Positions 1-43,646 of a stretch of DNA of 43,646 nt are shown here, piece after piece (position 1 is the stretch's first letter; every line of letters begins with the position of its first letter). The DNA is from a virus. The stretch covers positions 1-43,646 of the IMG/VR virus record IMGVR_UViG_3300045125_000005; one strand, written 5' to 3'. The notes beneath the pieces were generated by a model. It saw only the letters and a program-made list of their open reading frames with translations. It ran no database searches and was not told the DNA's origin. The position numbers were made by a program, and so were the translations under genes.

Positions 1-108
1 GGTCGCAATGCGTCCCCCCTTGGGGTGGCCGGACGGATTGAGAATCCGTCGTGATGATGACTTGAGTCAACATCAATCGCATGGACGGATGTTGACTAAA
101 GACATCGC
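1..108. repeat. Left copy of the terminal direct repeat
   Basis: These 108 bases recur at 43538-43646 with one difference: a run of four G here and five G there. The repeat contains a C6-TT-G4/5 stretch, a small hairpin (ACGGA, loop TTGAGAA, TCCGT, about 32-50) and an inverted pair GTCAACAT/ATGTTGAC at 66-73 and 89-96. It is either the true direct terminal repeat of a T7-like linear genome, seen in part, or the overlap left when a circular-mapping contig was not trimmed. The imperfect match argues against an exact k-mer overlap. Confidence 0.9.
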
Positions 109-520
109 AAAAAAATGTGTAAAAAATCGCCCTCTTTTGACTTTATCCAACATTGACTTTTTCGCGCACGCTCTTACGCGCACTAGAGTCAACATAGACT
201 CTAGCCAACATCGCGCCTACGCGCCTACGCGCACTAGAGTCAACATAGACTCTAGCCAACATCGCGCCTACGCGCCTTACGCGCACTAGAGTCAACATAG
301 ACTCCCGCCCCTCACCCGATGTTGACTCTATCCAACATTGCGCCTCCCGCTCCCGCTCTCTCCCGCCCTCGAAAAAAAAGATGAAAAAAAGTGACCAATC
401 GACTTGACAAGCCATTCCCGTCGCGCTACACGCGCGCGGGGCGCGTAAAGGCCGAAACGTTTTGGCTGCAAGGTATGAAACATATACTTAAGAAACTTAG
501 AAAAAAGAATAAAAAAGCGT
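109..520. other. Gene-free left-end control region
   Basis: No reading frame here looks coding. Apart from the tandem repeat (178-304) it holds A-rich tracts near 108-126 and 371-390, a further ATGTTGAC at 319-326, and a perfect TTGACA hexamer at 404-409 with only a poor -10 (TACACG, 427-432). The concentration of TTGAC-containing elements next to the genome end is what one expects of an early control or replication-initiation region. No specific function is proven. Confidence 0.55.
178..304. repeat. 51-52-base tandem repeat with hairpins, about 2.4 copies
   Basis: Units begin at 178, 229 and 281, so the period is 51 then 52 bases. Each full unit carries a perfect 8-bp hairpin, CTAGAGTC-AACATA-GACTCTAG (183-204 and 234-255), followed by CCAACATCGCGCCTAC. 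The third unit is cut off after GACTC at about 304. Each unit contains one copy of the GTCAACAT element found across the left end. Arrays like this can be binding sites for a replication or regulatory protein, or origin iterons; which one cannot be told from sequence. Confidence 0.85.
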
Positions 521-549
521 TTGACGCTTTCCGAAATGGGCTGTAGAGT
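521..549 (+). promoter_or_regulatory. Sigma70-like promoter in front of the candidate structured RNA
   Basis: TTGACG (521-526), a 17-base spacer and TAGAGT (544-549) give a good host-type promoter. Transcription would start near 556, just before the first GCAA-loop hairpin of the gene-free structured stretch. The next credible start codon on this strand is 1352, so the promoter appears to serve a long leader or a free-standing RNA. Confidence 0.55.
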
Positions 550-555
550 ACTCCC

Positions 556-1250
556 GTCAAATGGGCGCAAGCCCTTTGGATCTTTTAAAACCGAACAAGT
601 CTCCTCGCCCCGAAGTCAGTAGGGCCGCGACATGGTCGCGCAACCGCTAAGCGGTTGGGATCCTTCCCGCGCATAGCCTCCGCGACTCCTTCACCGGAGT
701 AGACACAGAGCGGAGCGACAGGCGCGAAAAAAGTAGAGCCGACTCCCCAAGTCACCCCAGTACATGACTTCCGATGTGATATCGGTTGGGCAACCGTAGG
801 GAAAACTTGGGGTAGAACGCTCGAAAGGAAGTAGCGGGCATGAATCCGCTTAGGAGACTTTCTTTCACAACAAAATAGTCTCGCGCTTGACTCGATGAGC
901 GCACTGGTTCGCTTGCCTTCACTGAGGGGAAGGAAGCGGAACTAGCCTAGGCACAATCTCCGCGACTAATAAAACGCGAAAACCTAGGTTTTCCTGCCCA
1001 AGTGAGGTGGCCGCAAGGCCGGGAAGTAAACCCAAGCGCGTCGATCACTTGATCCGACATAGACTTTTGTCATCACAGCATATGACTCTAGGCCAAGGCC
1101 GTCATGCCATATGCGGATGAGTTTTATTCAATGTCGGATCCCGATAGAATTGACTACAGTCATAGTCGATCAACGCGCGCGCTCCGGTCAAAAGATCGGA
1201 GAGGAGAGGCACAAGGCTCTGCCTAACTACGTCGCGGCCTATAGTCTACA
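556..1250 (+). ncRNA. Candidate large structured noncoding RNA (about 0.7 kb)
   Basis: No coding frame fits, but helices follow one another closely. Visible pairings: GGGC-GCAA-GCCC (563-574, GNRA loop, extended by CAAA/TTTG); CGCGAC/GTCGCG (626-640) stacked on CAACCGC/GCGGTTG (641-657); nested CGCGC/GCGCG (668-672 with 722-726), CTCCGC/GCGGAG (678-683, 710-715) and ACTCC/GGAGT (685-689, 696-700); CCCCAAGT/ACTTGGGG (745-752, 805-812) enclosing CGGTT/AACCG (783-796); AGCGG/CCGCT (833-850); GAGACT/AGTCTC (854-882); GCGCT/AGCGC (883-902); a long hairpin 907-942; CCTAGG/CCTAGG (946-951, 983-988); GGCC-GCAA-GGCC (1009-1020, second GNRA loop); GTCGATC/GATCCGAC (1040-1058); GCATATGAC paired with GTCATGCCATATGC (1078-1114). 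Size, phage location and a nearby tRNA-like element recall the GOLLD and ROOL giant phage RNAs, but I could not match a specific family consensus. Ends are estimates. Confidence 0.55.
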
Positions 1251-1252
1251 TC

Positions 1253-1305
1253 GTCGCATCCGTGGTTCGTTCGGCGTGGAGCGGGTTCGATTCCCGCTAT
1301 GCGAC
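1253..1305 (+). ncRNA. tRNA-like minihelix without anticodon arm (copy 1)
   Basis: GTCGCAT (1253-1259) pairs perfectly with ATGCGAC (1299-1305). Inside lies a canonical T arm, GCGGG-TTCGATT-CCCGC, directly adjacent to the 3' acceptor strand, and a 3-bp D-like stem (CCG, nine-base loop, CGG). No anticodon arm is present and no CCA is encoded. A related element sits at 2932-2976. It could be the 3' end of the preceding structured RNA, a stand-alone tRNA mimic, or a piece of a host tRNA gene kept as an integrase attachment site; the pairing upstream half favours a folded RNA. Confidence 0.55.
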
Positions 1306-1351
1306 TTCAAGTCAATGTTGACTTGTCTCAACTTTATCAGGAGATAACATC

Positions 1352-2091
1352 ATGTCCCGATACATTCCTCGCGTTCGCAAATCGCTCCGCATCCGTGATA
1401 ATTGGCTCGGCTCTTCGACTAAAGTCGCCAAGAGCCTCACGGGCCTCGGCGTCTATTCGCCCGTCATGTATCTCGATCCCTCGCAAGGCGTGTGCCCCTT
1501 CGCCGGGGCCTGCATGGCAGTGTGCCTTTTCGGCTCAGGGCGCGGTCGCTTTGACAACGTCGCCAAAGCGCGTCGGCAAAAGACTGTTGACTATAAGTCT
1601 AATCCGTCTCAAGCCATTGACGAGATCATTGACAACGTGGAGCGTGAAAAACGAAAGGCCCAACGCAAGGGCTACACCTACGCTCCGCGCCTCAACGGAA
1701 CGTCTGACTTGACTTGGGATAAAGTCTACAATGCAACGCCCGATGTTCAGTATTATGAGTACACTAAAAACATCAATCGTTTCCACTCTTGGCTTCGCGG
1801 CGAATTGCCCCGAAACCTGCACCTCACGCTGTCGCATGATCCCGTCACCGTCCCGCTTGCATCGTGCCTCGATGCGCTCCGATCAGGGGCGGCGTCGCCA
1901 TCGTCTTCAGCGGCGATCTTCCCGCTGAGTACCATGGTTTCCGTGTGATCGACGGCGATAAAACCGATGCGCGGTTCCTCGACCGCGAAGCGTTCAACAT
2001 CCCGCAGGGCGTCGGCTATGTCGTCGGTCTGCGCCTCAAGAAAACCGCCGCTTCCCGCAATGTCGCAATCGACAGCGGTTTCGCGGTCTGA
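1352..2091 (+). CDS. GP88-like cysteine-containing protein (one-base frameshift)
   Basis: The product (about 246 aa when joined) resembles the phage 'gene product 88' family, whose biochemical role is unknown. Seen here: an N-terminal half with a cysteine cluster (VCPFAGACMAVCLFGSGRGR, about residues 50-68) that could bind metal, a basic KARRQKT segment, and a C-terminal half containing VAIVFSGDLPAEYHGFRVID and a VGLRLKK end, both typical of the family. The reading frame breaks at GGGG (1886-1889). One extra G gives the continuous reading RSGGGVAIVFSGD, so I read it as a homopolymer error, not a pseudogene. The start is fixed by AGGAGATAACATC just before ATG, the leader used by several neighbours. 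It is the first gene after the gene-free left end. Family assignment is from remembered sequence pattern. Confidence 0.7.
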
Positions 2092-2094
2092 TCT

Positions 2095-2153
2095 AGTCAA
2101 CATCAACCAACGCCCCTAGTCGAAGTGACTAGGGGCAATGTCAACAGGAGATA
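2095..2153 (+). repeat. 59-base intergenic hairpin-RBS cassette, copy 1
   Basis: Identical over 59 bases to 2552-2610. Order: GTCAACAT element, spacer, a perfect 10-bp hairpin GCCCCTAGTC-GAAGT-GACTAGGGGC, then TGTCAACAGGAGATA, which supplies the ribosome site of the next gene. There is no T-tract, so it is not an obvious intrinsic terminator. It looks like an RNA processing or mRNA 5'-end stabilising cassette duplicated together with its ribosome site. Confidence 0.85.
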
Positions 2154-2158
2154 ACATC

Positions 2159-2551
2159 ATGTCCATGCTCAACATCGCCAAGTCTGGCAGCCGTAATGAA
2201 GTGTTCGACATTCTCTCGGGCCTTGATCACGACATGGCCGAGCAACTTCATGCCAATGAGTACTTCAGTCAACAGAAGTTTGACTACATTTTCAATGTTT
2301 TGCGGGAGATCGGAAAGCGGGGTCACGTTTGGCTCGACGATGAGATGGCCCCGATTTTCGTTAGGTGTTGTCAACATCACCTCCGAATGGAAGATATTTC
2401 CGAAGGCGTTTTGAGAGGGCCGGGAGGCTACGTCACTCCTTCGGTTTTGGATAAGCAGATGGAAAATCTGAACGCCCTTATCAAGTGCGCCCGTGTGGGC
2501 GCACCGGAGTGTCGTACACTCGCTGCGATTGCGAATAACGAGCAGTCCTAA
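2159..2551 (+). CDS. Hypothetical early protein, 130 aa
   Basis: I do not recognise this protein. It is soluble-looking, mostly helical, with no membrane segment or signal. A stretch with paired cysteines (FVRCCQHHLRMEDI) lies mid-protein and a second cysteine pair (IKCARVGAPECRT) near the C-terminus, but no standard zinc motif is clear. The start at ATG 2159 is chosen because it sits right after the duplicated cassette ending in AGGAGATAACATC; an upstream in-frame ATG at 2138 lies inside the cassette and lacks a ribosome site. The gene lies between two identical 59-base cassettes, which suggests that cassette and gene spread by duplication or that both genes share the same RNA processing. 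Confidence 0.75.
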   Translation: MSMLNIAKSGSRNEVFDILSGLDHDMAEQLHANEYFSQQKFDYIFNVLREIGKRGHVWLDDEMAPIFVRCCQHHLRMEDISEGVLRGPGGYVTPSVLDKQMENLNALIKCARVGAPECRTLAAIANNEQS

Positions 2552-2610
2552 AGTCAACATCAACCAACGCCCCTAGTCGAAGTGACTAGGGGCAATGTCA
2601 ACAGGAGATA
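2552..2610 (+). repeat. 59-base intergenic hairpin-RBS cassette, copy 2
   Basis: Exact repeat of 2095-2153: GTCAACAT, hairpin GCCCCTAGTC/GACTAGGGGC, and TGTCAACAGGAGATA leading into the ATG at 2614. Strict identity between genes that are themselves unrelated implies recent duplication or strong selection on the RNA element. Confidence 0.85.
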
Positions 2611-2613
2611 CCA

Positions 2614-2919
2614 ATGAACAAGCAAAAGTTTTCAGAACTGTTTGAAGCGGTCACCGAAGCACAGCGTCAATATACCGACAGCCGATACTATGAGAAGGAG
2701 TCCACTCAAACCCTTGAAACGATGGATCAATACATCGATGAGTTGATTGTCGAACACATCAAGCACGTTAAGAATGCTCAGGCTTACGAAACGATGATCG
2801 AAAACAAGAAGCGTCAGCGTGAGACGCATTACCTTGAGCATCAGAAACTTGCTCTCGCTCGCGAGAGTCGCTTTCAAGAATTGGAACGTGCCATGCAACG
2901 CCTCGCCAACTGCGACTGA
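2614..2919 (+). CDS. Hypothetical coiled-coil early protein, 101 aa
   Basis: Unrecognised. The whole protein is charged and rich in Glu, Gln, Lys and Arg, with heptad-like spacing throughout (for example EAVTEAQRQYTDSRYYEKES and QKLALARESRFQELERAM). It is probably one long helix or helical hairpin that oligomerises. There is no membrane segment. The start follows AGGAGATACCA in the second cassette. Short coiled-coil early proteins in T7-like phages often act on host proteins, but nothing here shows a target; that is inference. The gene is followed directly by the second tRNA-like element. Confidence 0.75.
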   Translation: MNKQKFSELFEAVTEAQRQYTDSRYYEKESTQTLETMDQYIDELIVEHIKHVKNAQAYETMIENKKRQRETHYLEHQKLALARESRFQELERAMQRLANCD

Positions 2920-2931
2920 TCGAGATCGACC

Positions 2932-2976
2932 GCGCATCCCGGTGGTATTGGGCGGGTTCGACTCCCGCCATGCGCC
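2932..2976 (+). ncRNA. tRNA-like minihelix without anticodon arm (copy 2)
   Basis: GCGCAT (2932-2937) pairs with ATGCGC (2970-2975). The interior has CCC/GGG closing a nine-base loop (GGTGGTATT) in the D-arm position and a canonical T arm, GCGGG-TTCGACT-CCCGC, next to the acceptor. It is followed by CTACCA. It shares GCATCC, GGTGGT-like bases and the whole T arm with copy 1 at 1253-1305, so the two are related. No anticodon arm exists and no complete tRNA can be built from the upstream sequence. It lies in the gap between two early genes. Confidence 0.55.
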
Positions 2977-3026
2977 TACCATCGCAATGTCGTGATGGTT
3001 TTAGTGCTAGTTAACTGGAGATAACA

Positions 3027-3571
3027 ATGCCCCTGAATTATAACTTTGAAAAAGTTGACCTCAGCAAGTTCAGCACCGAAGATGCGGAGATGATCAAGCA
3101 ATCCTTGCATCACTTCGCATACGTCTGCCTCAACGTTGGCTTCTACGGGCCTACTAAAAGCAACATTGAAGAATTTCTGCGGCGATACTCCCTTCTGAAC
3201 CTGCACTCCCCGTCATGGTTCTCCGGCGATGGGTACGCAAGGAATCGTTGGTCGCACGAATTCATTCGCGATCACCTTGTGGATCGCTACACGACCAATG
3301 CATCGCGTCGAACGGCTACCGAGTTCAACAAGAACATTCTTTCTATTCTTGCCGACGATTCGGCTACGAACTGGGGCCAACCCCGAGCGGCCATGAGTAC
3401 GAACTTCGTCGCAACGGTGCGTTCCTATCCGCTCACCCCTCTGATCTCATGTCCTACTACGATTCCTTCTACGTCATCTTCATCTCCGTGTGGTACGTCC
3501 TTCGGCTCGTCCTTGTAGGTGCAGCCGGGGCGTACCTCATCTCCTTCCTCCTCAAGATCTTCAAAAAATAA
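3027..3571 (+). CDS. Hypothetical early protein with C-terminal membrane segment (frameshifted)
   Basis: Unrecognised. The joined product is about 181 aa. The N-terminal two thirds are soluble; the C-terminus has a long hydrophobic stretch (YVIFISVWYVLRLVLVGAAG followed by AYLISFLLKIF) ending in basic residues, so it is likely anchored in the inner membrane with the bulk in the cytoplasm. The frame breaks at GGGG (3373-3376). Restoring one G gives NWGPTPSGHEYELRRNG and carries on into the hydrophobic tail, so I read it as a base-loss error. Start ATG 3027 follows CTGGAGATAACA. An early membrane protein could act in superinfection exclusion or in host takeover, but nothing in the sequence decides this. 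Confidence 0.65.
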
Positions 3572-3658: not shown

Positions 3659-4637
3659 ATGGCACACGAAATCGAATCTAATGACCGTACCATCTTCGTC
3701 GGCAAGCCTGCTTGGCACGGCCTCGGAACCGTGCTTCCCGATGCGCCCACCGTGGAGCAAGCGTTGGCTCAGGCCCTGCCTTGGGAACCCGAGGCTGTGC
3801 CTCTCACCCGTAACGACACGGGCGAGGTGATCGATCATTCTGCTCTCGTCCGTAGCGATGATCGTTCTTTGCTCAGCGTTGTGACTAGGCAGTACAACGT
3901 GATCAAGAACAGCACCGTTGCCAAGGCGGTGAGCATCGCCTTCCCCACTGGGGTGGTCGAGACTGCCGGATCCCTCCGTGGAGGGAAGCAGGTGTGGTTC
4001 CTCGTCCGCACCCCGGACAATGACTTCGATGCTCCCCGGACGTACCGATGACAAGGTGCAAGGCTACGGTCTGATCACCTCTAGTCACGACGGTACGATT
4101 CCTCTCACGGGTCTGCCCACGGGCGTGCGTGTGGTGTGTGCTAACACCATGAGCATGGCCTTGGCCAAGGCTAAGAAGCCTATCTCGATCAGGCACAAGG
4201 GCATCGCCATCGCTTCCGAGGAGGCTATCCTCAGCATGGTGTACCGTCAGGCTGAGGTCATCGCTCAGGGTATGCAACGGCTGCGTGAGGGTACGGAGTT
4301 CCTTGCTCAGACGCAGACCGATGACAAGTGGGTCAAGGATTACCTCTCTGCTGTGGTCTGTCACTTCTTCGGCAAGCCTGAGGATGAGGCTGTCAAGTGG
4401 AAGAGCGACGAGGAACGCGAGGAAGCCAAGGCTTTGGCATCCAAGTTGTACTCTTACCTTGACCATCCCAAGGTCAAGACTACCGATGGCGTGACCACCC
4501 GATGGGAAGCCTTCAACGCTGTGACGCAGTGGAGTGTCCACGAACGCCGCACTCGCGGCTCGCGTGGAGAATCCAACTGGCTCGGCAGCGGTGCTGAGTT
4601 GTCCAAGTACGCCTTCGACCTTGCGTGTGACATCTGA
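3659..4637 (+). CDS. DUF932-like phage/plasmid protein (one-base frameshift)
   Basis: The joined product is about 325 aa and matches the DUF932 pattern seen in phage and plasmid proteins of unknown biochemical role. Diagnostic pieces are the N-terminal KPAWHGLGTVLPD segment, a central VWFLVRTPDND segment and a downstream GVRVVCANTM motif. The frame breaks at CCCC (4034-4037). Removing one C gives NDFDAPGRTDDKVQGY and continues, so this is a base-gain error, the one clear insertion in the window. No membrane segment or signal is present. It has its own promoter-like sequence and leader hairpin and is followed by a UUCG hairpin, so it may be a single-gene transcription unit. DUF932 genes commonly sit among early or plasmid-maintenance genes, consistent with the place here. 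Confidence 0.8.
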
Positions 4638-6530: not shown

Positions 6531-7331
6531 ATGAGGATCAAGACTCTTTTGAATGATCACGTTTGGCCGCGCAAGTGGTCAAAGAATAAGACGGGTGCGG
6601 AGTCCATGCGTAACGCCATGCGCGTTGCTGCCCTGCTTCAAAACCCTTCTGTCAAGGACATTACTTGTCCATCCTTGGACAAGGTAGCCCAATGTCTTCT
6701 CGCTGAGGGGCTGAGTGGTGCTACGGTTAACCGTCACATGGCGGCTATCTCCTATGCCCTCAAGGTGGCATGGCGTATCGGTGAGATCGAGGCTGTGCCT
6801 CCGATGCCTGAGATGCAAAAGGAACGTATGCGTGAACGATGCCTCACCCGTGGAGAGATCGACGAGTTGTGTACGAAGATCACATCGCAACGGGTGTGTG
6901 ATCTGATCCGATTCCTCTACGACACGGGGATGCGAGTGCAAGAAGCACTTAACCTCAAGTGGGAGGACATCGAAGATGGCCACGCCCGTGTGCGTACCCT
7001 CAAGGGCGGCGCACACCGCATCGTTCCCCTCACCAGGGTAGCCCTTGCCACACTCCGCAAGGAGGATCCCGTCATGGTGTGGCGGGTCTCTCAGGACAGC
7101 CTGAACTGGAACTTCCGGGCTGCTCGCGAACGCTCGTCGATGCGTGGACAAGAGGACGTAGTGCCTCATGCCCTACGCCATTCGGCTGCGTCCCGCCTTG
7201 TCGCTGCCGGGGCTGACATTGCTATGGTCAAGGAGTTCCTTGGCCATCGCAACATCACCACCACCATGCGTTACGTTCACTTGAACAAGGAACGCTTGAA
7301 GAAGGCGGCATCCTTGTTGGATAAGTCGTGA
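6531..7331 (+). CDS. int: Tyrosine recombinase / phage integrase, 266 aa
   Basis: Site-specific recombinase that would catalyse phage-host integration. The N-terminal core-binding domain (residues 1-100) contains LSGATVNRHMAAISYALKVA, typical of SAM-like integrase domains. The catalytic domain has all expected residues: Arg135 (DTGMRVQEALNLKW), Lys158 in the beta hairpin (LKGGAHRIVPL), His213-Arg216 (PHALRHSAASRL), His239 (EFLGHRNITTT) and the nucleophile Tyr248 (MRYVHLN). It is therefore predicted active. It has no arm-binding N-terminal domain, so it is a short XerC/D-like type. It lies just upstream of RNA polymerase, the position of integrases in several T7-like marine cyanophages and pelagiphages. 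No excisionase or repressor was recognised. The attachment site may involve one of the tRNA-like elements at 1253 or 2932. Confidence 0.93.
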   Translation: MRIKTLLNDHVWPRKWSKNKTGAESMRNAMRVAALLQNPSVKDITCPSLDKVAQCLLAEGLSGATVNRHMAAISYALKVAWRIGEIEAVPPMPEMQKERMRERCLTRGEIDELCTKITSQRVCDLIRFLYDTGMRVQEALNLKWEDIEDGHARVRTLKGGAHRIVPLTRVALATLRKEDPVMVWRVSQDSLNWNFRAARERSSMRGQEDVVPHALRHSAASRLVAAGADIAMVKEFLGHRNITTTMRYVHLNKERLKKAASLLDKS

Positions 7332-13337: not shown

Positions 13338-15032
13338 AAGCACTTAATACTACTTCTCTCACAATCAAGGGTGTGTTGGCTGCGGCTCCCGCAACCACAC
13401 AGCCTACGTTTGAAGTTTCATATGGCGACCACTCGTCCTCTACCTACGCGGGTAAGGTTGAGTACGGAACTTTTAGCGGAACAACCGCAGTCACGGTTCT
13501 TTCTGCGCCGTCTACTTCTAATCGTGAGCATATTGTTAAGTCGATCACGATTTACAATAAAGACACGGCTAGCGTCACGGCTACGATTTACCTTGACGAT
13601 GGGACGACTACTTCAAACCTGCAAAAGGTAACTCTTCTTGCGGGATACTTTGCTCACTACGAAGCAGGGCATGGTTGGTACACGGCTAGCACGGATGGGT
13701 CGCGCCTTGGGGTGGGGGCAACGGGAGCGCAAGGGCCACAGGGGCCACAAGGCGCAACGGGTGCTACTGGCCCCCAAGGTGTCAAGGGTGATACGGGTGC
13801 TACTGGCCCCCGGTGTCAAGGGTGACACAGGGCACTGGCCCTCAGGGTGTAGCAGGGGCGCAAGGGCCGCAGGTGCTACTGGCCCCCAAGGTGTCAAGGG
13901 TGATACGGGTGCTACTGGCCCCCAAGGTGTCAAGGGTGATACGGGTGCTACTGGCCCCCAAGGTGTTAAGGGTGACACGGGGGCTACTGGCCCTCAGGGT
14001 GCTGATGGCCCTCAAGGCCCACAAGGCGCGACTGGGGCTACTGGCCCCCAAGGTGTTAAGGGTGACACGGGTGCTACCGGGCCTCAGGGTGCTGATGGCC
14101 CTCAAGGCCCACAAGGTGCGGCTGGGGCTACTGGCCCTCAGGGTGTCAAGGGTGACACGGGGGCTACTGGCCCTCAAGGTGTCAAGGGTGATACGGGTGC
14201 TACTGGCCCTCAGGGTGTGGAGGGTGGGACGACTACTCTCACTACCAAGGGTGACATCCTTACTCGCACTTCCTCTGCCCTTGCTCGCCTACCCGTAGGA
14301 ACAAACGGTCAAATCCTTTCGGCTGATTCAACAGCAACAATGGGTCTCGCTTGGGTAGCAAATACTGGTGGTGTTACCGATCACGGTGCCTTGACTGGAT
14401 TGGCTGACGATGACCACACAAAGTACATCTTCGTCGATCCCGCTTCATCAACCCGCAACGTAATCGTTCCCGGAGGCGACTTCAAAGCCCTTGTCGTCAA
14501 GAATTCTGGGTCACAATCGGTGAACCCGTTTGAAATGCAAAATAGCTCGGGGACAGCACGATGCTACATCAGCTACCTGGGCACACTTACCGCCTACGGA
14601 ATGGATGCAACCAACCGCGCCATCACCCAGGTTGCCGATCCCACCAACGCCCAGGACGCCGCTACGAAAGCATATGCTGACACCAAGGTCGCAGCCTCCA
14701 CGCTGACTACCAAGGGTGACCTCTTGGGAAGGACGGCTTCGGCTGTAACTAGAATTCCTGTAGGGACAGATGGCTACTTTTTGAAAGCCGACTCTGCAAA
14801 CGCCAACGGCGTGTCGTGGGCAACGGCAACCTTCTCGTCTGCGCTCACCACCAAGGGCGACATCTTGGTGCGCGATGCGTCTGCGGATACGCGCTTGCCC
14901 GTGGGGACAAGCGGTTACATTCTTTCGGCTAATCCATCTACGGCGACTGGACTGGAATGGATTGCTAACTCAGGTGGGGGCGGCGGTGGATCCGTTCCTG
15001 ACTTTGTTCTCTTTAATCAGGGGATCATTTAA
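13334..15032 (+). CDS. Tail fibre with collagen-like repeats (frame broken in the repeats)
   Basis: Virion adsorption fibre, about 560 aa. Domain order: N-terminal beta domain (1-125, [20 protein letters not shown]); a collagen-like Gly-X-Y region made of [19 protein letters not shown] units (about 13718-14230), which should fold as a triple helix; then three 45-50-residue repeats starting with [40 protein letters not shown] and [20 protein letters not shown], ending in a glycine run. The frame is lost between about 13811 and 13865, where units are missing two and three bases relative to their neighbours, probably from assembly collapse of near-identical repeats. The gene lies between primase-helicase and DNA polymerase, not after gp16 as in T7. 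It lacks a recognisable T7 gp17 N-terminal tail-binding domain. Confidence 0.82.
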
Positions 15033-34100: not shown

Positions 34101-37100
34101 GTACACCAAGGATCGGGCCGGATTCATTAACGCCAACCCCAAGTTGGCTGAAATCTTGACCGCTACCGTCAAGGGCGAGGATGTCATCAGCGGTAAAGCC
34201 GCTATGGATAAGGCTCTAAAGATCCGTGAAGTGCTTTCTGCGGAGGTCAAGGCTCGCAAACTGACCGCCGCTCAAGGCGAGGAATTGTTTAAGACTGCTT
34301 ACCGATTCACGGATTTTGACGAGTATCTCGCTGAAATCTTGGCTGATCGAGGGCTGCGTGACCTTGAATACAAGGCCGCTATGAGCGACCCCAACACGCG
34401 CCTTTGGGGTAAGGCAATCAAGTCCGCTACCCGTGCAGTTGACTCTATCTTCCAAGCCATCGGTAAGTTCTTCGGTAAGAATCACGTTGATCAACTTTAT
34501 TCGATGGTTCAGACTGGAGCGTCTAGGGTAGACATAAGCAGTAATATGCCCGGTTCTATCCGGATGCTTATGGGTAATCCGTTGGATACGTCGAGTTCGA
34601 CTACTGCTTCAAATCTTGACTACCCCAAGGAAATTCTGATCGACGGGAAGACTACGCCCGAAAACTTTGAACAGCAACGCGAATCGTTGAGGCGTGCAAT
34701 TGCTTTCAAACTTGCTGCTCCCCATGAATTGAAGTTGGGCGAACAGGGGCTTTGGAAGCAGTTCAAGCGGTTCCTGTGATTGAGAATCGCGAATTCATCC
34801 TCGATCCAAAGATCGCTACTCAAGAAGATTTGGGTGCTATTGGACTCTCTCCGGGAGCCATGAACCTATCCAATATGGATGGGCCTCAAGACGTTCTTGT
34901 TTGGGCGCGTGCGGCTGAAGTGGCTCAAGGTGGCGAGATGGCGCGTAATGTTCGCACCGATCTCGATACGATGACGCGCCAAGGTAAGAATGCCGCCAAT
35001 GTAATCTTCCAACGCGAAAAAGTTCTTTTCGATACCGATATTGATTCTTACGCTGCGAGCATGGGTGAAAGCCCAAGCAAGGTCAGGGCGCAGTTGTACA
35101 CGCAAATGAACATGACCAAGAAGCAGATCGAGGGGCTTCACCCTGAAGATCAAGCCATGCTTATGGCTCAACTTCGTGGTGTCATGCTCGCCCGTCGCTC
35201 GATAATGATGCACGCAGGTAGCAATTACCTGAAGGTGTTTACGGAGATTAAGCAGAGCGGTAAGTGGAACGGTAAGAATTTTGATCTGTTGACTGAGGCT
35301 GAAAAGATCAGGCTTGTTAATGCCTTTGATGCTTTCCAGTACTCAATGAATGGATACAAACTTCTTTCGGGTGAAGCGGGGCGTACTCTTCGATCTCTGA
35401 ATACTAGAGTCTCGACCCCGACGTTTAGTGCGCCTGTTGGTGAAACTGAGCCTATGGCTCCGAAGATCCCGCAACCTGCTACGCCCCGTGCGCCTAAAAC
35501 GCCTGCGGCTCCGGGTACGGCTGCTCCGAACATTTCCCCGACTGCTCCGAACATTCCTACGGCTCCGGGAGCAACTGCTCCGAACATTCCTACGGCTCCG
35601 GGTACTCCTGCTGCTCCGGGTACTCCTGCTGCTCCGGGTACTCCTGCTGCTCCGGGTACTCCTACGGCTCCGGGTACTCCTACGGCTCCGGGTACTCCCG
35701 CTGCTCCGGGAGGAGGTACAGGTGGAAGTGCGGGTGGTGGCGGCGGTACGGGTACGCCCGGAACTCGCACTCCTAAAACGCCCACAACGCCCACCACTCC
35801 AACGCCTGTTACGCCTGTCCCAGTTGCACCTACTGCTCCGACTACTCCGGGAATTCCTTCGGCTCCTGCGACTCCGGGTATGCCCGGAACTCCGGGTACT
35901 CCTGCTGCTCCGGGTACTCCGACTACGCCAACGACTCCTGTTCCCAATCCGGGAACGGCTTCAGCAGCACCTACGGGTGGCCCCGCTCAAGCAAACGCCA
36001 ACATGAAGGCGTACCAAGAATTTGAAAAGGTTCTTGGTGCGGATGCCCTTGAAAATCTCACCAATCCTACGAAGGTTCAAAATTACGTTCTGCTTATGCA
36101 GTCCGTTGTTGAGCAATTGCAGTTGGCGGGGTCAGGGCGATACGGCCTTGTTTCGATGCATCCTTCGGGATTCTCGTTCCCGAATTACATCGCGTCGAAT
36201 CTCATGACCGCGCCTATCTCGATGGTGCGTAACCTTGTCGGTAATGCGTTCAACTTGCTTTACATGGTGGGGCGCGGTTATGCGGGTAGTGCAGGAGAAA
36301 TAATGACGTTCTTCAACGCCAAACAAGGCTTTGAAACTCTTAAGTTTTGGAACTCATTTACTAAGAACCTGTTCGTGACGTTTGGCGAATCGTGGGGAAT
36401 CGCTGCCGATGGATGGCGTAATCACCGTAGTTACCTCAGTTCCGATTGGACTGAGGGTACGGAAATGACGCAGATCTACACGAAGAATAAGGTTCCTTCG
36501 ACTTCTTCGACCGTTGTGGGGCATATGAGTAAGTTTGGCTCAACTATCAAAGATGGAGTTGGGGCCACGCTTAACAAGACTGTTGGTTTGGGTATGCGCG
36601 TTTCGTCTGCTGCTGACGAAGGGTTTAAGCAAATGATTTATCGCGCTGCTAGCAAAGCCCAGTTGGTTGCTAAGTTTGAAGCGCAAGGCTTTAAAGGAGC
36701 GGCTCTCGTCGATCAAGTTGAAAATGCTTATACCCAATTGTTCAAAGATCGGAACGCCTACAACGTCCGCACTCTTTGGGATCGGGCAACTACGCAAGCG
36801 GAGCAACTTGTCGCCAATAATCCTCAACTTCAGAAATCGTTTGTTCAGATTCAGCAGGCTGAATTTGAAAAACTTTATCAGGATGTTGCCGATACTTTCG
36901 GTGGTGGTGACAAAAATACGGTTGAAGATTTTATTCAAATCAGCCGTGGTTCCCGCAAACTCGCTGAAAGGGGTACGTTCTCCGATCAAAGTTCAGTTAT
37001 CGGATCGGCCATCAATCGCCTTAAGTACAGCCCGGATACTCAGGCTCCGATTCGTTGGGCTACGTCGCTGTTATTCCCGTTCGTCTCGACTCCTTTGAAC

Positions 37101-40897: not shown

Positions 40898-40903
40898 AAA
40901 CAG

Positions 40904-40918
40904 GTTTATACCATAAAC
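40904..40918 (-). promoter_or_regulatory. Palindromic operator-like site with extended -10 for the minus gene
   Basis: GTTTAT-ACC-ATAAAC is a 6-bp inverted repeat. On the minus strand it contains TGGTATAAA, an extended -10 (TG-n-TATAAA), ending eight bases before the start codon. The transcript would be leaderless or nearly so, and a dimeric protein on the palindrome would block it. Confidence 0.4.
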
Positions 40919-40956
40919 GTCTTTTACTAGCCGACCTAGGATTTTTACCCCACCCC
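40919..40956. other. Short AT/C-rich spacer, nothing recognised
   Basis: Between the minus-gene operator and the promoter at 40957 there is CTTTTACTAG and a C-rich run; no hairpin or frame stands out. Confidence 0.4.
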
Positions 40957-40984
40957 TTGACGACCTCCTAGAACCTGATAAGAT
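40957..40984 (+). promoter_or_regulatory. Sigma70-like promoter before the second structured gene-free stretch
   Basis: TTGACG (40957-40962), 16-base spacer, TAAGAT (40979-40984). No start codon with a ribosome site follows for more than 400 bases; instead a run of hairpins begins at 41001. Confidence 0.45.
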
Positions 40985-40989
40985 GCACC

Positions 40990-41260
40990 TCGTCTTGAAG
41001 GAGGGTCGTTCCCTCGCCTCCTATGTCAAGGCCACCTAATGGTCGTAACGGTAGATAACAACCTTCCCACAAACACAGGGCCACAAGACTTTCGGCAGGA
41101 GTAGTGTCCGGGGAGAAATCCCACGAAAGCAAGTAGGAAGACCCGATAAAAAGGGTGGTATAGGTAGGTAACTACCGACGCTGCATCCTAGGTGACATAG
41201 CACCAAACACGCAGCGGGGGCTGTCTCCCGAAACCTCGATGTAGACTCTAGTCTCATGGG
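40990..41260 (+). ncRNA. Candidate second structured noncoding RNA (about 270 nt)
   Basis: No coding frame fits 40898-41422. Visible helices: GAGGG-TCGTT-CCCTC (41001-41015); CTTTCG/CGAAAG (41089-41094, 41124-41129) enclosing GGGA-GAAA-TCCC (41111-41122, GNRA loop); ACCC/GGGT (41141-41156); GGTAG-GTAA-CTACC (41163-41176, GNRA loop); CGCTGC/GCAGCG (41179-41184, 41211-41216) enclosing GGTG-ACATAG-CACC (41191-41204); CGGG/CCCG (41215-41230); AGAC-TCTA-GTCT (41243-41254). Stacked GNRA hairpins after a promoter-like sequence suggest a folded RNA. It does not show tmRNA, RNase P or group I intron signatures that I can recognise. Ends are estimates; 41260-41384 is A-rich without clear structure. Confidence 0.45.
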
Positions 41261-41384
41261 GGGTAAGGGGGGCTATGGAGATCAGCACAAAAAACAGAGG
41301 CCAACCTCCTCCAACAGCCCCTTGAAGATTATTAGTAAAGAGTACTTGAAGATGGTTGAAGAGAACCTAAAAAGTACCTAAAGA

Positions 41385-41416
41385 CCCTTAAAAGTTAAGG
41401 GCATTGATGGTAAAAT
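41385..41416 (+). promoter_or_regulatory. Hairpin and extended -10 element before the metalloprotease-like gene
   Basis: CCCTTA-AAAGT-TAAGGG (41385-41401) is followed by TGGTAAAAT (41408-41416), an extended -10-like sequence that ends six bases before ATG 41423. As with the minus-strand gene, this spacing would give a leaderless or near-leaderless message. Confidence 0.35.
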
Positions 41417-41422
41417 CTAGAG

Positions 41423-43537: not shown

Positions 43538-43646
43538 GGTCGCAATGCGTCCCCCCTTGGGGGTGGCCGGACGGATTGAGAATCCGTCGTGATGATGACT
43601 TGAGTCAACATCAATCGCATGGACGGATGTTGACTAAAGACATCGC
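43538..43646. repeat. Right copy of the terminal direct repeat
   Basis: Matches positions 1-108 except for one extra G in the G-run. The flanking sequence upstream (43491-43537) is an AT-rich stretch after the last terminator and holds no gene. Both copies together show that the window closes on itself, so gene content is likely complete. Confidence 0.9.

Follow-up and report, generated by a model that had tools for sequence, protein, structure and literature searches.

The left end of a T7-like phage was found to carry a long non-coding region which closes with a tRNA-like minihelix, and a second minihelix lies downstream between two protein genes. The favoured reading, considered fairly probable, is that both minihelices are putative RNase P and RNase Z sites. 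At the first a structured leader would be cut from the GP88 mRNA, and the second would act in the same way between protein genes. The two minihelices, their base pairing and their intergenic position on the sense strand were observed directly, as were the family of similar elements in other phages and the covariation within that family.

Genome and left end of the phage

The window, meaning the whole stretch of DNA that was analysed, was the entire IMG/VR record IMGVR_UViG_3300045125_000005 (43,646 nt). Judged from its sequence, it is the genome of a very divergent temperate T7-like phage. The gene set included a T7-type RNA polymerase, a DNA polymerase, a head-tail adaptor, a major head protein, a terminase and a tyrosine integrase (6531-7328). 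The RNA polymerase was approximately 27% identical to that of the nearest named phage and portal identity was at most 62% to the relatives found through the portal protein. The sequence of bases 1-108 is found again at 43538-43646 (copies of 108 and 109 nt, 99% identical, with one base different), which makes this a nearly complete genome bounded by a direct terminal repeat. Due to this one-base difference and to two split genes, GP88 at 1352-2091 and DUF932 at 3659-4637, indel errors were suspected and the contig likely carries them from assembly. The first protein gene belongs to the GP88 family (PF17338; Pfam 1.3e-26; plus strand), and a probable indel near 1864-1948 interrupts it. Several T7-like and marine phages, namely HTVC120P, HTVC309P, CRP-143 and Lo5R7ANS, have a GP88 homologue as their first gene or close to it.

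Three tandem repeats of 51 nt (163-316) contain CTAGAGTC...GACTCTAG hairpins and the AGTCAACAT motif. This 9-mer occurred 11 times in either orientation compared to 0.25 expected, and was confined to the left-end intergenic DNA and the terminal repeats (65-327, 1315-1323, 2095-2103, 2552-2560 and 43603-43635). It is likely an operator or early control motif. A 10-bp intergenic hairpin is present on the plus strand at 2112-2136 and again at 2569-2593, within a 62-nt repeat (D3) of 98% identity. Collagen-like coding repeats of 9/18 nt were seen in two structural genes (13688-14296 and 35466-35974). A second non-coding stretch of approximately 520 nt at 40898-41422 contains a TTGACG-16-TAAGAT promoter, with TG before the -10 box, and a GNRA hairpin. 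Its folding was only mildly above shuffles (z about -2).

As indel errors were suspected, the absence of a reading frame at the left end was assessed with frameshifts permitted. A codon model trained on the phage's own genes was applied in 96-nt windows to all six frames. The best-of-six score over 529-1345 lay at 0-14% of real coding windows, far under typical values. The region is non-coding in all six frames even when frameshifts are tolerated, in agreement with the original prediction, which had been made from the sequence alone. That prediction also placed a host promoter before the region. The string TTGACG-17-TAGAGT is present at 521-549 on the plus strand, but as a candidate sigma-70 promoter it is weak (9 of 12 consensus matches), and sigma-70-like sites were not clearly above chance (four found compared to 2.1 expected). 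An intrinsic-terminator-like hairpin followed by T-rich sequence lies on the minus strand at 512-532, left of the structured region and overlapping the candidate promoter. No intrinsic terminator was found on the plus strand between the structured region and the downstream genes. Non-coding left ends of 0.8-1.1 kb are normal in temperate T7-like phages, as in Pasto (271-1051) and Lo5R7ANS (1-1118).

Folding of the left-end region and search for relatives

The candidate structured leader, or non-coding RNA, of approximately 700 nt spans 556-1252 on the plus strand. The single-strand fold energy of 548-1306 was -292.5 kcal/mol, with z-scores against dinucleotide shuffles of -7.1 (20 shuffles) and -5.7 (60 shuffles). 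No shuffle folded as well. Among 43 windows of this size across the phage, the 759-nt block had the best score, -5.8. The next windows, which are coding, scored -5.4 and -5.0, and the excess of the block over coding windows is modest. When sub-domains were tested singly, two clearly beat their shuffles. The first, at 719-889, had a z of -4.4 and the second, a nested long hairpin at 1036-1178 with a 10-bp GATCCGACAT/ATGTCGGATC stem (stem probability 0.99), had a z of -5.2, with 0 of 300 shuffles as good in each case. The reverse complements of both scored equally well. A long-range closing helix pairing 625-630 with 1232-1237 was predicted on the plus strand with a pair probability of 0.70, from this single sequence only.

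Over the whole block the z-score was -5.7 on the plus strand and -4.2 on the minus strand. GCAA hairpins on GC stems are present at 563 and 1009, both confined to the plus strand. Only 0.055 were expected and one in 1,000 shuffles had as many. The two GCAA tetraloops had been noted from the sequence alone and both are there. The better overall z and the two capped stems are hints which favour the plus strand. In two further temperate T7-like phages, Pasto and Lo5R7ANS, the left end gave weaker folding (z -2.7 and 0.0). Strong global folding is confirmed, but the claim of at least a dozen helices is weaker than it was put. The helices are single-sequence predictions and a clear excess was found only in 719-889 and 1036-1178. 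From this modelling, a giant RNA of approximately 700 nt is plausible but unproven.

The original prediction likened the region to the GOLLD and ROOL RNAs. Neither Rfam model matched, and the proposed Rfam search of the left end gave no family at the gathering threshold or with relaxed filters (E up to 5, positions 1-3100). The proposed BLASTN search found no homologue of the approximately 800-base region in named phages, nor did blastn in plasmids. None was found in 75 related viral records and bacterial genomes, or in about 180 related loci at word size 7. Rfam on the related loci returned ordinary tRNAs and nothing else. GOLLD and ROOL frequently adjoin tRNA islands (PMC12286853), although nearness to tRNA genes is a frequent and not an obligatory trait of theirs. 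The tRNA-gene setting assumed for this region was not borne out, as ARAGORN found no tRNA in the window. The likeness to GOLLD and ROOL is that of a large phage RNA without known function; the difference is that the window region has no model match, no real tRNA nearby and no conserved homologues. A GOLLD or ROOL identity of the leader is not supported by these sequence searches. What is supported is a large, strongly folding non-coding region with a tRNA-like element after it; the proposed very large ornate RNA of the GOLLD or ROOL kind, with neither a model match nor a homologue in the searches, is not. Strongly folding non-coding gaps were also seen in relatives of the phage, at L040:2057-2600 and L191:1170-2977. 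The L191 gap precedes a GP88 gene and contains repeated hairpins. No recognisable sequence was common to the relatives' structured gaps.

Two other readings of the region were weighed. In one, 529-1300 is a DNA control region of promoters, operators and concatemer or replication signals, whose structure comes from palindromes and which yields no functional RNA. This is a serious possibility, if the lesser one. T7-like phages keep early promoters and repeats at the same place and the left end here is rich in repeats and AGTCAACAT motifs, but the repeat-rich part (1-330) is upstream and outside 548-1250. For the sub-domains the minus strand gave folds as good as the plus strand, as such a region would allow, whereas the lower overall z on the plus strand and the GCAA loops found only there speak for RNA. 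Related phages also have non-coding left ends of 0.8-1.1 kb, but weaker folding was seen in those of two T7-like phages. It is unlikely, though less so than the minihelix alternatives discussed below, that the structured RNA acts in cis on its own transcript, for example as a put-like antiterminator or a translation regulator of the early operon. The early operon lies directly downstream with no plus-strand intrinsic terminator before the genes, which suits such a role. However, none of the antitermination RNAs in Rfam resembled the region, and the minihelix at the border suggests that the leader is cut off.

tRNA-like minihelices in this phage and in others

Minihelix 1 occupies 1253-1305 on the plus strand. 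A 7-bp acceptor (GTCGCAT/ATGCGAC) is stacked on a 6-bp T stem with the consensus T loop TTCGATT (AGCGGG-TTCGATT-CCCGCT), and all pairs are Watson-Crick. The insert between the 5' acceptor strand and the T arm, CCGTGGTTCGTTCGGCGTGG, is unusually long and includes a D-loop-like GTGGT. A tRNA-like minihelix closing the region had been predicted and is present as described. On the sequence evidence it is strongly supported and is the more important half of that observation. Minihelix 2, at 2932-2975 on the plus strand, has the acceptor GCGCAT/ATGCGC, a GGTGGTA and the T arm GGCGGG-TTCGACT-CCCGCC, with the insert CCCGGTGGTATTG. It sits between a stop codon at 2919 and a gene starting at 3027. The earlier picture of the left end saw minihelix 1 correctly and missed both minihelix 2 and the likely contig indels. 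Aligned with each other, the two copies differ in two outer pairs changed on both sides (T-A to G-C and A-T to G-C). Downstream of both copies come a short hairpin and a AGGAGATAACA-type ribosome-binding site, in that order. The predicted hairpin CAAGTCAA-TG-TTGACTTG (1308-1325, plus strand) is directly 3' of minihelix 1, and that predicted 3' of minihelix 2 (2977-2999, plus strand) is ahead of the GGAGATAACA ribosome-binding site.

With a definition of a 6-bp acceptor, a T stem of 5-6 bp and an insert of up to 30 nt, the window gave two matches, whereas 300 shuffles and 5.46 million strand-bases from other, related loci gave none. In longer fold contexts the T arms had pair probabilities of 0.65-0.99. 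Those of the acceptors were 0.0-0.27 for minihelix 1 and about 0.01-0.02 for minihelix 2, where competing helices are formed and tertiary contacts lie outside the model. This predicted folding of the acceptor strands with other partners counts against the processing reading.

Known tRNA-like molecules were considered as identities for the element. A tRNA was rejected as there is no cloverleaf with an anticodon arm, only 13-20 nt from acceptor to T stem, and ARAGORN was negative. A tmRNA was also rejected. It shares a tRNA-like end with an acceptor, a D-loop remnant and a T arm, but in the window element the acceptor strands are adjacent, with halves 39 nt apart compared to the two ends of an RNA of approximately 350 nt, and there is no tag reading frame. 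ARAGORN and Rfam were negative for tmRNA.

The same design was found in about 20 other phage contigs, with up to five copies each and differing acceptors. The family was defined by an acceptor of 5-8 bp, a T stem of 5-7 bp, a TTCRANN loop and an insert of up to 32 nt. Both window copies fall within this definition and both are between genes on the coding strand. A strict minihelix pattern gave 0 matches; looser pattern scans of viral contigs (IMG/VR) gave mostly tRNAs, plus family members. A ribosome-binding-site pattern arrived at an unrelated phage and was dropped. In L247, an unrelated phage, GGAGCAT-CCGATGGTTCGG-C-GGGGG-TTCGATT-CCCCT-A-ATGCTCC lies between two genes. L318 has a mascRNA-like version followed by a hairpin, a ribosome-binding site and a start codon. 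Neither Rfam nor ARAGORN recognised any of the family elements.

When any acceptor was permitted, a scan of 9.9 million strand-bases gave 39 distinct elements that lie outside the tRNAs called by ARAGORN, compared to 0 in mononucleotide shuffles. Of these, 28 were kept for the analysis of context, and the other 11 were left out as tRNA arrays, as atypical or because of very long inserts. The 28 lie in sense-strand gaps between genes, the sole exception being a spurious 79-codon frame over minihelix 1 of the window. The start is no more than about 60 nt from the upstream stop codon in 17 of the 28, some of which overlap the stop. Typically the 5' acceptor strand is soon followed by [A/C]TGGT, with a D-loop-like TGGT, and the 3' strand by CTAA or ACTAA. 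Many inserts measure 9-16 nt and contain TGGT. The acceptor and T stem stack to 12-14 bp in total compared to 12 in tRNA, and no CCA follows the minihelices, two points which count against the processing reading.

Part of the pairing in the seeds was due to selection, as they were partly found by a GCAT/ATGC pattern, and a search by T arm only was made for this reason. The T-arm 11-mer GGTTCGANTCC gave 49 matches in 19 minihelix-bearing contigs, on one strand per contig throughout. Of 26 sites that were neither tRNA nor of the GCAT type, 10 had a correctly placed paired acceptor compared to 1.3 expected from shuffled flanks. Four copies in L345 have the acceptors AGCATG, GCGCT, GCGGG and TAGGTAG, each perfectly paired, and another phage has the different fully paired acceptors TAAGGCT, TAACGCT, TAAGCATA and TAACTAT. 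In L406 (IMGVR_UViG_3300031993_000103) there are five minihelices in a stretch of 1.2 kb (reverse strand, 2191-3323), all with acceptors that pair and differ from one another. An alignment of eight same-length copies showed two-sided changes in 8 of 12 pairs, and 97.9% of its cells were paired compared to at most 55% with the partner slid. Covariance model R1, built from six of these eight, matched minihelix 2 over its full length (26.3 bits, E 0.0011). It matched minihelix 1 by the T arm only, which would make this a more divergent family member.

In the genome of Halorubrum pleomorphic virus 1 (NC_012558) the sequence GGCAG-TCTGGTGTAACCA-GCGGGG-TTCGATT-CCCCGC-CTGCC lies at the ORF5/ORF6 border (approximately 4080-4121). 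It was not found in three relatives and is a possible, weak candidate for a minihelix in a cultured archaeal virus. The family looks undescribed in the open-access literature searched, and an earlier description elsewhere is possible.

Two readings would give the minihelices another origin. It is improbable that the T-arm elements are attachment sites, one of them being attP, a copy of a host tRNA 3' end used by the tyrosine integrase. The phage does encode an integrase (6531-7328), but there are two elements and they lie 3.5-5 kb away from it. In two bacteria, tRNA-Gly(TCC) genes contain the 19-nt T arm without a mismatch, but no tRNA with a matching 3' half was present in 398 genomes of one phylum. 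The tRNA-Leu genes that temperate T7-like relatives carry in their early regions speak for attachment. Each element has its own complementary 5' acceptor, which attP would not need, and other phages have up to five copies with different acceptors. There is equally little chance that the minihelices are decaying tRNA genes which have lost the anticodon arm. The T arm is tRNA-like and the GG D-loop-like, and the annotation of prokaryotic genomes is known to suffer from partial, non-functional tRNA fragments (PMC9897764). However, the acceptors differ and yet remain fully paired, the insert often has 9-16 nt and a TGGT, and the place between a stop codon and the next start is recurrent, none of which is expected under tRNA decay.

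Proposed processing and comparable systems

In the processing reading, the early transcript would begin with the non-coding structured leader of approximately 700 nt. Minihelix 1, with an acceptor stem, a D-loop-like GTGGT and a T arm and with no anticodon arm, would separate the leader from the first gene. Host RNase P would cut ahead of the acceptor at about 1252/1253, and RNase Z would cut behind it after 1305 (about 1306). By these cuts the leader would become an RNA of its own whose 3' end is defined, and the hairpin downstream of minihelix 1 would protect the new 5' end of the GP88 mRNA. Minihelix 2 (2932-2975) would act likewise between two protein genes, separating two early mRNAs. The cleavages and the release of the leader are presumed, as is a function for it. 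A broader reading is possible and is offered tentatively: phages from several unrelated lineages may punctuate their operons with unannotated minihelices of approximately 42-57 nt, cut by RNase P and RNase Z, and this phage may also release an RNA of approximately 700 nt belonging to a new class.

In T7, structured RNase III sites separate the early genes, with one at every border. Structured borders are also a feature of this phage, which has plain hairpins at other early gene borders of the window, but its minihelix is tRNA-like whereas the T7 site is a long double-stranded hairpin. RNase P has a classical minimal substrate made up of an acceptor, a T stem and a T loop (PMC11143913). In MALAT1, two D-loop guanines and the T loop of mascRNA recruit RNase P and RNase Z, which thereby mature a large non-coding RNA at its 3' end (PMC11693755). 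The same logic is proposed for the phage minihelices. Like mascRNA and menRNA (MALAT1 and MENbeta), the phage arrangement combines a candidate large non-coding RNA with a reduced tRNA-like element downstream of it, which has an acceptor, a T arm and two D-loop guanines. The human RNAs are nuclear and have an anticodon-arm-like stem, there is no homology, and the processing in the phage is putative. In mitochondrial tRNA punctuation, tRNA-shaped elements between genes mark the cuts in polycistronic RNA (PMC8601606). The phage elements may be similar marks, but those in mitochondria are complete functional tRNAs whereas the phage elements lack the anticodon arm.

The minihelices are invisible to current annotation (ARAGORN and Rfam) and recur in many phage contigs. 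They predict RNA ends at defined bases, and minihelix 1 gives a large RNA a predicted 3' end. If they are processing sites, they would represent a general and compact way for phages to cut polycistronic RNA with the tRNA enzymes of the host, a form of cutting for which the main examples to date are mitochondria and a small number of long eukaryotic RNAs.
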